Positions 29,877-36,931 of a stretch of DNA of 64,000 nt are shown here, piece by piece (the stretch's first letter is position 1; the number at the start of each line of letters is the position of its first letter). A program made the position numbers and the translations under genes. The notes below the pieces were generated by a model. It did not search any database and had not been told where the DNA came from. It saw nothing but the letters and a program-made list of their open reading frames with translations. Source of the stretch: Prevotella sp. (lineage in GTDB: Bacteria; Bacteroidota; Bacteroidia; Bacteroidales; Bacteroidaceae); assembly GCA_017475265.1 (NCBI GenBank), contig JAFVFY010000019.1, forward strand, positions 1 to 64,000. The letters are read 5' to 3'.

Positions 29877-30767
29877 ATGGGAAAGTATTTAGACCCGAGA
29901 GCCGACCTGACTTTCAAGAAGGTGTTCGGTGAGCACAAGCACCTCGTCATCAGTTTGCTTAACGCCCTTCTTCCTTTGAAGGACGACGAGCGTGTGGAGA
30001 GCATCGAGTACTGGCCAGCCGAGAAAGTACCCGACCGTCCGCTGGCAGAAAAGGACAGCATTGTGGACGTCTGCTGCAAGGATAACAAGAACCGTGAGTT
30101 TATCGTGGAGATGCAGATGACATGGACGGACTCTTTCAAAAAGCGCATCTTGCTGAACGCCTCGAAGGCATACGTGGCGCAGTCGAAGAAGGGTGACGAT
30201 TACGAACTCCTACAGCCCGTCTATGCGCTGAACTTCGTCAACGAGAATTTCATGAACGACGTGGACGAATACTACCATTACTACCACCTCGTCCACGACA
30301 AGTACACCGACAAGGTGATTGACGGTCTGCACCTCATCTTCGTGGAGTTGAAGAAATTTAAGCCGCAAACATACGCAGAAAAAAAGATGCAGGTGCTATG
30401 GCTCCGTTTCCTAACCGAAATCAATGACGACACGCGCGAAGTACCAGCCGAACTGTTAGAGAACGCCGAAGTGAGCGAAGCCCTTGAAATCGTGGAGCGT
30501 GCCGCTTTCGACGATGCTGAAATGCGGGCTTACGACAAGTTCTGGGATAATGTTAGTGTGCAGAAAACGTTAGACAATGCTCGTAAACGAGAGATTAACG
30601 CGGTGAAGCGCGAGGCTGAGAAAGCCAAGGCAGAGGCAGAAGAAGCCAAGGCCAAACTGAAGCAGAAGGATATTGACACTGCCCGTCGCATGAAGGTCGA
30701 CGGTATGGCAGCAGATCTGATTGCAAAATACACCGATCTCACCGCCGAAGAAATCGAGGGGCTGTAA
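29877..30767 (+). CDS. Rpn-family PD-(D/E)XK nuclease / putative transposase
   Basis: 296 residues. The N-terminal domain (1-200) matches the PD-(D/E)XK transposase/Rpn family: DPRADLTFKKVFGEHKHLVI, LAEKDSIVDVCC (Asp), REFIVEMQM (Glu-x-Gln in place of Glu-x-Lys), and the Tyr-rich YYHYYHLVHDK. These nucleases promote RecA-independent recombination in E. coli. The C-terminus is a Lys/Glu/Ala coiled coil (about 235-270) and a short QKDIDTARRMKVDGMAADLI-type helix. Own promoter and terminator; a self-contained accessory gene common in Bacteroidales. Confidence 0.88.
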   Translation: MGKYLDPRADLTFKKVFGEHKHLVISLLNALLPLKDDERVESIEYWPAEKVPDRPLAEKDSIVDVCCKDNKNREFIVEMQMTWTDSFKKRILLNASKAYVAQSKKGDDYELLQPVYALNFVNENFMNDVDEYYHYYHLVHDKYTDKVIDGLHLIFVELKKFKPQTYAEKKMQVLWLRFLTEINDDTREVPAELLENAEVSEALEIVERAAFDDAEMRAYDKFWDNVSVQKTLDNARKREINAVKREAEKAKAEAEEAKAKLKQKDIDTARRMKVDGMAADLIAKYTDLTAEEIEGL

Positions 30768-30847: not shown

Positions 30848-31435
30848 ATGGCACACCAACCAAACAAACACTTCAATACCTACAAGGAGGGGCTGGACCT
30901 GGAGTTCCTGCGGGAGTACTGCATGGAGCACGGGGAGCGGCGAGTGATGGAGCGGGGCGAGACGCTGGAGGAGGCGGGCGAGCCGGCGCAGTGGGTGGCC
31001 TTCGTGGAGCGGGGCTGCTTCAAGTACATGGTTCACAACGACGAGGAGGGTAAGGACTACTGCACGGGCTTCGCCTTCGAGGGCGAGTTCGTGTCCGACT
31101 TCCCCTATTGCCTCGACGGCGACGTGTCAGAGGTGAGCATCGAGGCGGACATGCCGTGCGAGGTGCGCGTCATCAGCGGACAGGAGCTGCAGGCCCTGTT
31201 CGACAACGACCCGAAGATGGCGAAGATGGACGTGAAGATCCTGAAGAACCTGTTCAAGATGGTCTATGGCCGCGACCTCGACCACTACCGCTACACCGCC
31301 CGCAGCCGCTACCGCCGACTGCTCGAACGCTGTCCGCAGGTGGTGCAGATGCTCTCGCTCAAGGACATCGCCTCGTTCCTCAATGTCACACCTGTTTATC
31401 TAAGCAAGATTCGCAAGGAAATCACATTTGGCTAA
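30848..31435 (+). CDS. Crp/Fnr-family transcription regulator
   Basis: 195 residues. N-terminal cyclic-nucleotide-binding-like barrel (about 15-120, VMERGETLEEAGEPAQWVAF, FAFEGEFVSDFPYCLDGDVS) and a C-terminal winged HTH (IASFLNVTPVYLSKIRKEIT). No Cys cluster for an Fe-S switch and no clear cAMP-binding Arg/Ser pair, so the ligand is unknown. A good AGGGAGG ribosome site precedes the ATG. A truncated paralogue with the same terminator lies 1.1 kb upstream, suggesting a local duplication around the Rpn gene. Confidence 0.88.
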   Translation: MAHQPNKHFNTYKEGLDLEFLREYCMEHGERRVMERGETLEEAGEPAQWVAFVERGCFKYMVHNDEEGKDYCTGFAFEGEFVSDFPYCLDGDVSEVSIEADMPCEVRVISGQELQALFDNDPKMAKMDVKILKNLFKMVYGRDLDHYRYTARSRYRRLLERCPQVVQMLSLKDIASFLNVTPVYLSKIRKEITFG

Positions 31436-31477
31436 GAAAAATAGCCCGAATTTATAAAACTAGTTTTAGAGTTGCAC

Positions 31478-31519
31478 CCTCGGCACCCAATTTCCGGGCC
31501 TTGCCGGGGGCTTTTTCGT
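31478..31519 (+). terminator. Terminator of the Crp/Fnr gene
   Basis: CCTCGGCACCCAATTTCCGG then GCCTTGCCGGGGG and CTTTTT; near-identical to the copy at 29750-29789. Confidence 0.7.
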
Positions 31520-31563
31520 GCCTTTTTGTGTAACTTCGCAGCAAAAAAAGCGAAGTGAACGAA

Positions 31564-31621
31564 ATGCAAACAAGATGCAAACAACTATTGCCTCTTTTTT
31601 GCATTGGTTTTATTAGTTTTG
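31564..31621 (+). promoter_or_regulatory. ATGCAAA operator and promoter of the lipoprotein-HTH regulator
   Basis: Two ATGCAAA direct repeats 11 bp apart (31564 and 31575) and an inverted TTTGCAT (31598-31604). The -7 box TAGTTTTG starts at 31614, exactly 33 bp after the last base of the second repeat; the downstream operator has the same spacing. Confidence 0.75.
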
Positions 31622-31639
31622 CGCACAAAAACAAAAAAG

Positions 31640-32665
31640 ATGAAACAAATACTGATTACATTGGCTGCTTGTCTGCTGATTGGGTGCTATTCCAATAACA
31701 GTAGCGACAAATCGAATGTCCTTCAGGGAGCATGGACGCTGCGGCAGGTGGAATATCCCTACGACCGCCCTGATACGTATTACAAACCAGAGAACACCCT
31801 GCTTCGGCTATATGACGGCGACAGCGTGGTGTATCAGTGTTGGCTGAACAAGACAGAGTCGGGGTTCATCATAAGGCCCGAACTGCGGTGCCCTGTGACG
31901 TTGGTCGACAAGGGGCATGGCGAATATGTCTATATAGAGGAGGACAGCCCACGCCCATTGACTATAGCGAACGATTCAACAATAGTTATTCAGCAGCAGG
32001 GAATACTGTACACTTTCCATCGCGCTGATGACATCGAGGAGGAATGGGGCGCTGACATCATTTCTATCATTGCCGAAGGCACAAAAAACGGCCCTTCGGA
32101 GGAAGCGCAGAGCTATGTGCTGTCAGCCAAGGAGCGACATCAAGCCAACGTTATTAACAGCTTTATCCTCTCCACCGTTCTCGTCATAATTCTTATGCTG
32201 CTCATCGTGCGTGTTGCTATTCAATACCGCAGGGACAGGCAAAGACTCCAACTGCAACTTCAGCAGATTCAGGAGGTGCAACAGGAACGTCCACAATCCG
32301 TCAGAAAAGCTATCGAATCAGTGGAAGATGCCTATTTTGCGTCTGGTGATTACGAGGTGCTGCAACGTCGCATCGCCACCGGACAGCGACTGAGGGAAGC
32401 AGACTGGCAAGAGATAGAAAGTCATATCAGGAGGGTATATCCAGGATTCTGTAGTCAGTTGAAGGGTCTGTATGCCATGTCTGAACTCGAATATGAAGTG
32501 TGTCTGCTCATCAAACTCCGTATGGCTCCGAAGGACATCGCCGCCGTGTTGGCTCGCGACATGAGCACCATCAGCACCGTGCGTAGTCGACTCTATGGCA
32601 AAGTGTTCGGTCGTAAGGGAGGAGCAAAGGAATGGGATGATTTCATCCGTTCCATCGGCGTATAA
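31640..32665 (+). CDS. Membrane-tethered lipoprotein-HTH one-component regulator
   Basis: 341 residues from the ATG at 31640. A lipoprotein signal (MKQILITLAACLLIGC, lipobox LIGC at 13-16) leads a beta-rich extracytoplasmic domain (about 30-150, GAWTLRQVEYPYDRPDTYY), one membrane helix (about 171-193, FILSTVLVIILMLLIVRVAI), a basic/Gln-rich coiled coil and a cytosolic C-terminal HTH of LuxR/sigma-4-like type (ALYMSELEYEVCLLI-like start, then IAAVLARDMSTISTVRSRLY). So sensing and DNA binding appear to be in one chain. Upstream and downstream promoters share a phased ATGCAAA operator, consistent with autoregulation and control of the next operon. The exact family name is not known to me. Confidence 0.82.
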   Translation: MKQILITLAACLLIGCYSNNSSDKSNVLQGAWTLRQVEYPYDRPDTYYKPENTLLRLYDGDSVVYQCWLNKTESGFIIRPELRCPVTLVDKGHGEYVYIEEDSPRPLTIANDSTIVIQQQGILYTFHRADDIEEEWGADIISIIAEGTKNGPSEEAQSYVLSAKERHQANVINSFILSTVLVIILMLLIVRVAIQYRRDRQRLQLQLQQIQEVQQERPQSVRKAIESVEDAYFASGDYEVLQRRIATGQRLREADWQEIESHIRRVYPGFCSQLKGLYAMSELEYEVCLLIKLRMAPKDIAAVLARDMSTISTVRSRLYGKVFGRKGGAKEWDDFIRSIGV

Positions 32666-32670
32666 ACTGT

Positions 32671-32750
32671 ATGCCAACAAGATGCAAAGTGAATGCAAAG
32701 TAGATGCAAACTCAAAACCTTGGTCAGGTGGCAGAAAGACCGTACTTTTG
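32671..32750 (+). promoter_or_regulatory. Four-unit 11-bp-phased ATGCAAA operator with promoter
   Basis: ATGCCAA at 32671 and ATGCAAA at 32682, 32693 and 32704: exact 11-bp steps, one face of the helix. The -7 box TACTTTTG starts at 32743, 33 bp after the last repeat base, as at 31614. Confidence 0.85.
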
Positions 32751-32798
32751 CAGCGAGTTAGTTCACTCGAAGTCAAACCAAATTAAAAAGTAAAGCTT

Positions 32799-33296
32799 AT
32801 GAAACGAGTAATGTTAGTGATGGCAGTTGCACTCATGAGTGCGCTGCAGGTGAGTGCCCAAAGCGTGAAGATTGACGACAAGGAACTTGTCGGCGTATGG
32901 CTTATGGAGTCGATGCAATGGGAGGGCGAGAAGAAAACCGTGTGCGGTAGGCAGACAGGCTACACGCAGTTCAAGTACTACGGGGCAGACGGCGAGTATG
33001 CCTGTGCTGAGATTGCCATGACCAAGGACGGCAAGTGTGTGGTGATGCCTCACGAGTATGGCACTTATACATTCAAGGATGGCTGGTATTCAGAAATGGG
33101 ACGTGAGGCCATCAAGGATGCCATCGTATGGGTGGACAAGACCACGACAAAGGGCACATGGCAGAAGCGCCACGACATTTGGAAGAAACAATTGAACATG
33201 CCTGAGAAGCTGCGCAAGTACATCGTGGATTGCTGCAAGATGAAGAATACACCCGATGACATCCAGCAGATGATAAAACAGACGATGTTCAAGTAA
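32799..33296 (+). CDS. Exported lipocalin-like protein of unknown function
   Basis: 165 residues with a signal peptide (cleavage after ValSerAlaGln). The start of the mature part (ELVGVWLMESMQWEGEKKTV) and the strand pattern (YTQFKYYGADGEYACAEIAM, HEYGTYTFKDGWYSEMG) resemble lipocalin-like Bacteroidetes proteins; its GVWLMESM opening also recalls GAWTLRQV of the regulator's sensor domain. A helical tail with KYIVDCCKMKNTPDDIQQMI follows. First gene behind the ATGCAAA operator; ligand unknown. Confidence 0.8.
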   Translation: MKRVMLVMAVALMSALQVSAQSVKIDDKELVGVWLMESMQWEGEKKTVCGRQTGYTQFKYYGADGEYACAEIAMTKDGKCVVMPHEYGTYTFKDGWYSEMGREAIKDAIVWVDKTTTKGTWQKRHDIWKKQLNMPEKLRKYIVDCCKMKNTPDDIQQMIKQTMFK

Positions 33297-33330
33297 CGGA
33301 ATCCTACAAACAACTAAAAACTCACAGGCT

Positions 33331-33828
33331 ATGAATAACAAGAATATTTCATTTTCATGGTTGCGCATAATGTGCGTGGCTGTGGTAGCCCTCTTCTCGA
33401 TGAATACGATGGCGCAAAAAGACGAAAAAATCTTCGACATCGTAGAGCAGATGCCACAGTTTCCTGGTGGCGATGTAAAGTTGATGGAGTTCATTGCTCA
33501 CAACATCAGATATCCTGAAATCGCGACAGAAAATGGCGTGCAAGGCCGAGTGTTAGTACGTTTTGTCGTGGAAAAGGATGGAAGTCTGACAACCCCAGAG
33601 ATCGTAGCAACATCGTCAGGCATCGGTGAGGCAATTCCTATAGATGCAACATCCAAAATGGGCGAGAAAGAACGTCAAAATGCCGAGACTCATAATGCAG
33701 GTGTGAAAGCCCTGCGCGATGAGGCCATCCGTGTAATCAAGTCTATGCCCAAATGGACTCCTGGCAAACAGCGTGGCAAGGAAGTACGATGCAGGTATAC
33801 CATCCCTGTGACATACAGACTAAACTAA
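33331..33828 (+). CDS. TonB C-terminal-domain protein
   Basis: 165 residues: a signal peptide or membrane anchor (about 10-29, LRIMCVAVVALFSMNTMAQ) followed by one TonB_C domain with MPQFPGGDVKLMEFIAHNIR, GRVLVRFVVEKDGSLT and a C-terminal WTPGKQRGKEVRCRYTIPVT. It lacks the Pro-rich periplasm-spanning linker of true TonB, so it is more likely a free or anchored periplasmic TonB_C protein than a working energy transducer. Second gene behind the ATGCAAA operator, 34 bp after the lipocalin-like gene. Confidence 0.85.
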   Translation: MNNKNISFSWLRIMCVAVVALFSMNTMAQKDEKIFDIVEQMPQFPGGDVKLMEFIAHNIRYPEIATENGVQGRVLVRFVVEKDGSLTTPEIVATSSGIGEAIPIDATSKMGEKERQNAETHNAGVKALRDEAIRVIKSMPKWTPGKQRGKEVRCRYTIPVTYRLN

Positions 33829-34608: not shown

Positions 34609-35010
34609 CTAACGGAAAGACGCGGCTTGCAGTTCCTTGGTTATACTTGCCATGCAAGCAGTCAGACGCTCGTAGGTCTTTTCGCCTGCCGTCTTGATGC
34701 CCCGCGTGTATTGACGCATCAGCGAGGGGTTAACCCCAGCTCGCTTGGCAACCTCCGTGACATTCAGGAAGGAGAAATAGTCGAAAAACGACTGCAAATC
34801 GTACTGATAGCGGAACTCCACTGGCTCAGCCGTCTTCCCGCTTTCCTCGTAGTCAGCCTTGGCCTCTTCCAGACAAGCCTGCAAGTCTTCCTTGGCCTCC
34901 TTCACCGTCTGGCCTACAGCATTCAGCCCTGCTCCATAGACATCCTTCTCTGTGTGGCACCAGAATGTGCCGTCGGATGCTTGCGATACTGTCACTAATA
35001 CTTTCCTCAT
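34609..35010 (-). CDS. hicB: HicB-family antitoxin with HTH
   Basis: Antitoxin that binds HicA and represses the pair. About 133 residues from the ATG at 35010, chosen because MRKVLVTVSQASDGTFWCHT is the usual partial RNase-H-like HicB start; the longer frame to 35106 would overlap hicA. The HicB fold covers about 1-70 (GAGLNAVGQTVKEAKEDLQA) and the C-terminal half holds an XRE-like HTH (FLNVTEVAKRAGVNPSLMRQ, YTRGIKTAGEKTYERLTACM). It follows hicA by 85 bp on the same strand. Confidence 0.9.
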   Translation of the reverse strand: MRKVLVTVSQASDGTFWCHTEKDVYGAGLNAVGQTVKEAKEDLQACLEEAKADYEESGKTAEPVEFRYQYDLQSFFDYFSFLNVTEVAKRAGVNPSLMRQYTRGIKTAGEKTYERLTACMASITKELQAASFR

Positions 35011-35095: not shown

Positions 35096-35278
35096 TTACT
35101 CCCCAACCAACTTTTTCAAGATTTTCTGCGCTGTTCCCGTGGGAACTTCGCCAGCGTGCCGAGGCACCCATTCGGACGCTCCCGTCTTGGGATTCGTCCA
35201 CTTGTCGTGCCTCTTTCCGTTTCGAGCCAGAACGCACCCGGCGTCCCTGAGGCTCTCTAACAATTCAGATGTTTTCAT
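35096..35278 (-). CDS. hicA: HicA-family mRNA interferase toxin
   Basis: A 60-residue YcfA/HicA-like toxin that cleaves mRNA. The double-stranded-RNA-binding-like fold is recognisable from MKTSELLESLRDAGCVLARN, the catalytic-His region GKRHDKWTNP and the C-terminal PRHAGEVPTGTAQKILKKLV. The usual GSHxx His loop reads GKRHDKW here, a common variant. It precedes hicB and has a TACCTTTG box (35313-35320, minus strand) 35 bp upstream. Confidence 0.92.
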   Translation of the reverse strand: MKTSELLESLRDAGCVLARNGKRHDKWTNPKTGASEWVPRHAGEVPTGTAQKILKKLVGE

Positions 35279-35605: not shown

Positions 35606-36931
35606 ATGGCCACGGTGGAGGACATTCAGAACTTCCTGATGGACAGGGTTCTGCTGCGGTACAATGTAATTACGGGAAGGGTGGAATACCGGCTGCCAGA
35701 CTCTATGCCCCCTAAGTTAGGGGGCGACAGGGGTCTGAACGAGGGAATGTCCTGCGCTTGTTCAGACCCCCAACCCCCTAACTTAGGGGGCTTGTGGCAG
35801 ACATGGCAACCCATCAACGACCGTATCGTCAATTCGCTGTGGGCCGAACTGTCGGCTACGAAGGTGGTGCGGGTGCAGGACATGTACAGGGTGATAGAGT
35901 CGGACTTCGTGCCGGAATTTCATCCGTTCCGCTACTACCTTGAGCACCTTCCGCCGTGGGACGGGCAGAACCATATCCTGGCGATGTCGGTATCGGTGAG
36001 CGTGAAGGGCGATGTGCAGGAGCAGATGCTCTTCGCCGAGTACCTGACGAAGTGGCTGGTGGGCATGGTGGCGGGATGGGTGGACGACTCGGTGGTGAAC
36101 AACGTCATCCTGGTGCTCATAGGCGAGCAGGGGTCGTACAAGAAGACGTGGTTCAACTACCTGCTGCCGCCGGAACTATCGAACTATTTCTACACGAAAA
36201 CGAATGCCCAGAGGATGGGGCGCGATGACCTCTTGACCTTGGCACAGTATGGTCTGGTGTGCTGCGAGGAGCTGGACACGATGCGACCTTCAGAACTGAA
36301 CCAACTGAAGGCGGCAGTGACCATGCCTTCGATTGACGAGCGGGCGGCGTATGCCCACTTCCATGAGCATCGCAAGCACATAGCGTCGTTTTGCGGAACG
36401 GGCAACAATGCGCAGTTTTTGGCAGACCCGACGGGCAACCGCCGCTGGCTGCCGTTCGAGGTGGAGTCGATAGAGTCGCCCCGAGAGCATCCCTTCGACT
36501 ACACGGGCATCTACTCGCAGGCGTATGCGCTCTACCGTCAGGGCTTCCGCTTCTGGTTCACGCGAGACGAGATTCTGCGGCTGGCCGTGCATAACAAGCA
36601 GTTTGAGACTCCACGGTTAGAGCACGAACTGGTGCAGTTGTATTTCCGTCGTCCAGCGGACAGGAAGCCAGGCGAGTTCATCAGTGTGGCGCTGGCCCTG
36701 CAGATGGTGGGCGCTGGCATCACGCAGAAACTCAGCAGCGTGCTGTTGGGGCGGGCGTTCATGGAACTGGGCTTCGAGCGCAGGACGTGCAGGAACGTGC
36801 GCGGCTACATAGTCGTGCGCCGGTCGGCTGAGGAGATGCGGTCGTTGCGCAACGCGATGGCACAGGAGTCGTCAGACCCCACTCCTGCCCCTGATGCGAA
36901 TACAGATACAGATGATACAGTGATATTCTGA
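35606..36931 (+). CDS. VirE/VapE-type P-loop helicase-like protein (DUF3874 C-terminus)
   Basis: 441 residues in the open frame. Core: FHPFRYYLEHLPPWDGQNHI, Walker A GEQGSYKKTW, Walker B-like VCCEELDTM, and the GTGNNAQFLADPTGNRRWLP signature of VirE/D5-like helicases; the C-terminal part (RRPADRKPGEFISVALALQM) is DUF3874-like. The natural start is probably ATG 35545 (MSKKKK...), but that frame stops after an A8 tract; one A fewer would fuse it to this frame as KPNWKEYMATVEDIQ. Residues 34-61 are repeat-derived (CCCCCTAAGTTAGGGGG). First gene of a module with DUF4248, HU-like, smalltalk and amidase. Confidence 0.85.
   Translation: MATVEDIQNFLMDRVLLRYNVITGRVEYRLPDSMPPKLGGDRGLNEGMSCACSDPQPPNLGGLWQTWQPINDRIVNSLWAELSATKVVRVQDMYRVIESDFVPEFHPFRYYLEHLPPWDGQNHILAMSVSVSVKGDVQEQMLFAEYLTKWLVGMVAGWVDDSVVNNVILVLIGEQGSYKKTWFNYLLPPELSNYFYTKTNAQRMGRDDLLTLAQYGLVCCEELDTMRPSELNQLKAAVTMPSIDERAAYAHFHEHRKHIASFCGTGNNAQFLADPTGNRRWLPFEVESIESPREHPFDYTGIYSQAYALYRQGFRFWFTRDEILRLAVHNKQFETPRLEHELVQLYFRRPADRKPGEFISVALALQMVGAGITQKLSSVLLGRAFMELGFERRTCRNVRGYIVVRRSAEEMRSLRNAMAQESSDPTPAPDANTDTDDTVIF
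35708..35786. repeat. Nested palindromes in frame within the VirE-type gene
   Basis: CCCCCTAAGTTAGGGGG (35708-35724) and CCCCCTAACTTAGGGGG (35770-35786) enclose a second inverted repeat, GGGGTCTGAAC and GTTCAGACCCC. The whole unit is read through in frame. Confidence 0.85.

Follow-up and report, generated by a model that had tools for sequence, protein, structure and literature searches.

A candidate two-promoter sensory module built around a predicted membrane-embedded regulator with a probable LuxR-type domain and helically phased TGCAAA arrays in a rumen-type Prevotella genome

A regulator gene located near the middle of the window (the whole stretch of DNA analyzed here, 64,000 nucleotides) and the gene that follows it probably constitute a locally acting sensory module with two promoters, in which a transmembrane one-component activator bearing a LuxR-type helix-turn-helix (HTH) domain would control both its own gene and its neighbor; we place the probability of this reading at roughly three in four. 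Within it, we infer direct binding of the DNA by the regulator, activation as opposed to repression, clustering of the protein on its sites, and a ligand shared between the regulator and its target. The module comprises the following features, all on the + strand.

31564..31581 (+): operator array of the regulator, two ATGCAAA words (31564 and 31575) with an 11-bp step (sequence; homologues)
31614..31621 (+): -7 box of the regulator promoter, TAGTTTTG, 32 bp past the last word (sequence; homologues)
31640..32665 (+): regulator gene, 341 residues (translation; alignment of 22 homologues)
31640..31687 (+): signal peptide whose lipobox, LIGC, ends in a presumably lipidated Cys16 (sequence)
31721..32038 (+): sensor domain, approximately residues 28-133, homologous to target 1 (hhalign)
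32147..32230 (+): membrane helix, approximately residues 170-197 (hydropathy)
32441..32662 (+): C-terminal HTH domain, approximately residues 268-341 (profile bridging via paralogues)
32671..32710 (+): operator array of target 1, ATGCCAA, ATGCAAA, ATGCAAA, ATGCAAA, in 11-bp steps (sequence; homologues)
32720..32723 (+): -33 box of the target promoter, TTGG, 9 bp past the last word (sequence; homologues)
32743..32750 (+): -7 box of the target promoter, TACTTTTG, 32 bp past the last word (sequence; homologues)
32799..33296 (+): target 1, 165 residues, exported and related to the sensor domain (hhalign)
33331..33828 (+): second gene of the operon, TonB_C domain (Pfam, 3.8e-17)

Homologous loci were gathered from a scan of contigs, which returned 23 related loci, all from uncultured Bacteroidales (the host animals that were named were ruminants), and from a second search, covering the window's genus with 398 genomes, that supplied further relatives. 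After late-starting matches and duplicates were dropped, 66 distinct full-length relatives remained in addition to the window, and these were divided into a close set of 55 (at least 45% identity, window included) and a divergent set of 12. An operator array was counted wherever two or more TGCAAA words stood at a lag of 11 bp, with one word exact and the others carrying at most one mismatch.

The regulator is built, from its N terminus onward, of a signal peptide with a lipobox, a sensor of about 105 residues, a single membrane helix, a polar linker, and the HTH domain. The lipobox and the lone membrane helix had both been proposed in an earlier note on this DNA and were both recovered: LIGC occupies residues 13-16 of the translation, and one hydrophobic stretch, at about residues 170-197, reaches a hydropathy of 2.95 over 19 residues. 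The polar stretch behind the helix appeared, by eye, to be possibly coiled. Searches of Pfam and NCBIfam found no kinase or receiver families in the regulator, and a membrane helix and a DNA-binding domain are joined in one protein, as in transmembrane one-component regulators. We infer that it would reside in the inner membrane with the sensor outside and the HTH in the cytoplasm, where in most cases a lipid at the N terminus would anchor it a second time.

The sensor domain and target 1 are homologous over more than the GVW-type strand that had originally drawn attention to them. With the signal peptides removed, hhalign aligned the two over 104 columns (95.4%, score 51.7), and 30 column shuffles scored at most 17.4. 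No convincing Pfam or NCBIfam match and no significant PDB match was obtained for the fold of either, and a weak Lipocalin_4 match (E 0.041) appeared in one of 17 target 1 homologues; the beta domain that the earlier note read in the sensor is thus putative. Target 1 was found downstream of the regulator on the same strand in 53 of the 66 relatives, including 52 of the 54 close ones. Among the 398 genus genomes, 71 had a regulator match at E ≤ 1e-30; the regulator was counted as present at E ≤ 6e-78, which gave 45 genomes (G271 being partial at a contig end), and the remaining matching genomes held divergent or sensorless relatives. Target 1 (E ≤ 1e-10) was present in 46 genomes, namely all 45 with the regulator plus G032, whose copy is without its N-terminal third and without an array. 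Owing to the common ancestry of the genomes, the Fisher value computed for this co-occurrence should not be read as a probability. A second, divergent regulator-target pair lies side by side in G166:C38 (L157), with 26.6% and 32% identity to the window proteins. In another locus (L158, G034:C9), the 3' part of an open reading frame matches the end of target 1, and its 5' part resembles, by eye, the Crp-like protein before the module. The TonB-like second gene is unsupported as a constant part of the module, an open reading frame similar to it having been found by eye directly after target 1 only in the window and in L041 among 23 loci.

Both the homology of sensor and target and their presence together in 45 of 45 regulator genomes would also suit a regulator that senses target 1 itself, whether its amount, its folding or its occupancy, with the sensor being a captured copy that reports on its paralogue; the L157 pair, which stays side by side despite its divergence, agrees with this as well. 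However, in the divergent set target 1 was found beside the regulator in only one of 12 homologues (L134), and the next gene is mostly no relative of target 1, so a sensor of this kind can function with no paralogue as its target. We consider sensing of target 1 unlikely, though by no means negligible. The divergent set also bears on the idea of double anchoring by lipid and helix: a lipobox is usual, with a Cys within residues 11-34 in 54 of the 55 close homologues and a strict lipobox in 44, but it is dispensable, the Cys being present in seven divergent homologues and absent from five. Because these five are without the Cys and the next genes of the divergent set are mostly unrelated, neither lipidation nor sensor-target paralogy is general.

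The probable identity of the C-terminal domain emerged through its paralogues. Pfam yielded no GerE match for the window regulator and a weak one (E 0.047) in one of 22 homologues, and a profile of close relatives alone found no LuxR-type chain in the PDB. The regulator does match the paralogue L030 at 4.7e-8, and GerE is detected in L030 at 4.9e-9 and in a further paralogue, L034, at 3.3e-5; the regulator profile compared with these two paralogues reached 97.6%, against at most 6.9% in 40 shuffles, and a mixed profile extended to LuxR-type chains (best 5.6e-4). The HTH that had been read from the sequence is thereby placed, by way of these paralogues, in kinship with LuxR/GerE domains, and its recognition helix in the window is STISTVRSRL (residues 309-318). 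At L007, a paralogue from the window's own genome, the regulator is preceded by an inverted repeat resembling GTCGAGGTGATGGA...TCCATCACCTCGAC and the next gene by nearly the same sequence, an own-plus-neighbor logic like that of the module but with a palindromic site.

The pair of ATGCAAA words 11 bp apart before the regulator was confirmed, and of the four said to precede the next operon, those at 32682, 32693, and 32704 are exact and the unit at 32671 departs from the word by one mismatch. In both promoters, exactly 32 bases intervene between the final A of the last word and the TAnnTTTG box, so the distance of 33 bp given previously is correct when the first base of the box is counted. Single ATGCAAA words were neither rarer nor commoner in the window than chance (11 seen, 10.4 expected), and ATGCAAA-N4-ATGCAAA matched three times in the whole 4.75-Mb assembly, each time within the two arrays, with no matches for the reversed control. 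A search of the same genome for a larger regulon, allowing up to two mismatches, returned one further place only (G000:C104, with two mismatches).

The phased array recurs in the same register before the close homologues and before their neighbor genes, an outcome that favors the earlier note, which had proposed this check. It precedes the regulator in 51 of 55 loci and the next gene in 47 of 55, counts that are not independent events because the loci are related to each other; 20 rounds of dinucleotide shuffling gave means of 0.3 and 0.8 loci, respectively. Other lags from 7 to 21 occurred in 0-11 loci, and the double lag of 22 in 10 (regulator) and 40 (next gene). TAnnTTTG follows the last word at a gap of 32 in all but one of the 47 target promoters, and the gap is 32 or 33 for 43 of the 51 own promoters of regulators. 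A count that also accepted TGCGAA and required the register gave 52 of 55 own and 48 of 55 target promoters. We aligned 46 target promoters that had been chosen because a word occupied the 32-bp position and the adjoining position resembled one; matches of at least five of six bases were found at the next word in all 46, at the third in 27, and at the fourth in 35, and TTG stood 9 bp past the last word in 43. Consecutive units at this threshold numbered two in 45 loci and three to five in seven for own promoters, and four in 23, two in 19, three in five, and six in one for target promoters; relaxing the threshold to four of six bases gave two units in 37 of 51 own promoters and four units in 35 of 47 target promoters. 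Some divergent homologues are without an own-promoter array (it was found in one of 12, L134), although phased or paired words often precede their next genes.

This geometry is relevant to whether the regulator might instead repress, sitting on the array and blocking RNA polymerase until a signal releases it. The target array does adjoin the -33 box, and sequence cannot give the direction of control, but the array lies upstream of both the -33 and the -7 box and covers neither, and a fixed 32-bp register combined with helical phasing is what contact with polymerase would be expected to select. We accordingly find repression improbable and retain activation as the preferred reading.

Under the count that accepted TGCGAA, seven of the 55 loci were missing a countable target array. 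Three of them (L125, L086, and L132) lack an intergenic promoter. Their target 1 begins 30-65 nt past the regulator, and their units precede the regulator at a gap of 32: four in L125 (the third weak), three plus one that is a base out of step in L086, and five in L132 (the third weak). In L073, the regulator and target 1 are parted by two genes of 137 and 571 codons, and the array lies immediately upstream of the displaced target 1 (L156). In L133 there are six phased units of TGCGAG words, the third weak, at a gap of 32 to the box TAATTTCG, which the count missed; in L053 the words follow right behind the regulator stop on a contig without target 1; and in L050 target 1 is present and an array was not found. 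The loci with a displaced target and those with no intergenic promoter show that the array belongs with the target promoter and not with the 3' end of the regulator. Own arrays were absent from the count in L053, L118, and L133, for L118 at the stated threshold.

Sensorless sister regulators (L009-L012, L015, L016, L143-L150, L152-L154) also keep a TGCAAA word, with at most one mismatch, 32 bp upstream of the -7 box, as seen in 17 of 22 loci, and the gene after them is, by eye, NfeD-like. Here the words are paired at a distance of 10 bp, and most pairs are inverted. Because the sister loci keep the 32 bp but with 10-bp pairs, the register looks like a trait of the family and the 11-bp array like a trait of this branch. 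The HTHs of the sisters may thus read the same word, and the array could in principle be read by another protein, such as a sister regulator with the same helix motif, with the linked regulator acting elsewhere. We regard this as very improbable: the sister loci do not have the 11-bp array, almost every close homologue has arrays at the promoters of the linked regulator and of its target, and the word is changed in a clade whose own helix has changed.

That clade consists of four loci (L052, L053, L132, and L133) in which the helix has [ST]-[LM]-RKRL in place of RSRL, and it is nested among the TGCAAA regulators with a tree support of 100/100; STISTVRSRL itself, together with TGCAAA words, occurs in 49 of the 67 regulators. 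In L052, the regulator's promoter carries TGCGAAC and the target promoter TGCGAAC/TGCGAGC, both at a gap of 32; in L132, the units of the only promoter are TGCGAAC and TGTGAAC/T; and L133 and L053 have TGCGAGC words behind the regulator. In L056 and L057, where the helix is STISNIRRRL, TGAAAAC words in 11-bp steps precede the next gene. The joint change of word and helix hints at a specificity link and not at a solved code, and it is suggestive only, because each change represents one evolutionary event.

A broader generalization, which we offer tentatively as being slightly more likely to fail than to hold, is that membrane-embedded LuxR-type activators in Bacteroidota read a word of six to seven bases at a fixed 32-bp register to the -7 box. 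Two or three helix residues would set the word, and the remainder of the protein would dictate how many words there are and how they are arranged, as an 11-bp direct array here and as inverted 10-bp pairs in the sister branch. In this branch, the sensor would be a captured target gene in a protein anchored by lipid and helix. Were this true, the captured sensor would make regulator and target a self-contained sense-and-respond pair.

That the arrays reflect chance or an interspersed repeat, as a loose pattern found in 207 of 398 genomes and partly derived from a tandem repeat might suggest, can be dismissed given the 51 and 47 of 55 loci at lag 11, where shuffles yielded means of 0.3 and 0.8, the exact pair that is unique to the two promoters in its own genome, and the gap fixed at 32. 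The loose pattern in question (three units, up to two mismatches) was rejected as a genome-wide marker of the regulator; it is non-specific because TGCAAAGATAATGCAAA-like sequences occur outside the module, and one of four inspected places with the pattern was an unrelated tandem repeat. Such sequences were seen in L093, L106, L100, and L098 (genomes G366, G149, G126, and G024, respectively), and in G366 they belong to a roughly 66-bp tandem repeat present at several sites of that genome.

In the activator module that we favor, an extracytoplasmic signal would alter the pairing or clustering of the regulator through the membrane helix and the polar stretch, and the HTH domains would bind in head-to-tail order along TGCAAA words spaced by one helical turn. 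The nearest word lies 32 bp upstream of the -7 box and 9 bp upstream of the -33 box, from where a bound HTH could touch RNA polymerase. Target 1, with up to four or more words, would then be switched on, and the regulator's own gene, with usually two, would be switched on more weakly. Because target 1 is a relative of the sensor domain, the exported protein probably binds the sensor's ligand, which would provide feedback or ligand handling.

Elements of this arrangement have parallels in known systems. MalT, an activator whose HTH is of the LuxR type, forms clusters on direct repeats near the promoter, but it is soluble, binds ATP, and uses other words and spacing. BlaR1 and MecR1 are membrane sensors whose sensor domain is related to the protein of the controlled gene; they differ in acting by proteolysis of a separate repressor and in having no DNA-binding domain of their own. 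In ToxR and CadC, the DNA-binding domain is N-terminal. These last two typify the transmembrane transcription regulators, a known class reported to be enriched in Bacteroidota (PMC10269533); the window regulator likewise combines a sensor with a membrane helix and a DNA-binding domain on a single polypeptide but differs in its C-terminal HTH, N-terminal lipobox, and phased array operator, and the words lipoprotein, LuxR, and GerE are absent from the text of that paper. SusR-like regulators of Bacteroides, as characterized in PMC3878776, are also membrane proteins with a periplasmic sensor, a C-terminal DNA-binding part, and predicted direct-repeat sites; their targets concern carbohydrates and their predicted repeats are 67 or 77 bp apart, unlike the 11-bp arrays of the window module, a comparison made by description. 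ArcA boxes in Escherichia coli comprise two to five direct repeats with an 11-bp center spacing (PMC3798270), a likeness of operator layout only, since ArcA is an unrelated protein, a soluble response regulator of the OmpR/PhoB type. No description of the module was found in the open-licence papers searched; membrane-embedded one-component regulators in general form a known class (PMC10269533).

How membrane-held proteins find their DNA sites is an open question for transmembrane regulators, and here protein, operator, and target change together across many species. The natural experiments among the loci (the switch of word, the displaced target, and the missing inner promoter) make specificity and register testable. 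The module would allow operators to be predicted for related, largely undescribed regulators of Bacteroidota, and it would yield a small sensor component for use in commensals of the gut and rumen.

The surroundings of the module in the window include the following genes.

29877-30764: PD-(D/E)XK family transposase-like nuclease (Pfam)
30848-31432: protein with a cyclic-nucleotide-binding domain (Pfam)
34609-35004 (minus strand): reading frame without a Pfam match that adjoins the HicA gene and may be its HicB partner
35096-35275 (minus strand): HicA toxin family protein (Pfam, 5.1e-8)
35606-36928: VapE-like protein (Pfam)

A recurring stretch, actagttttagagttgcaccctcggc..., was noted by eye at 31440-31530 of the window and also beside L043, L052, L053, and L158.
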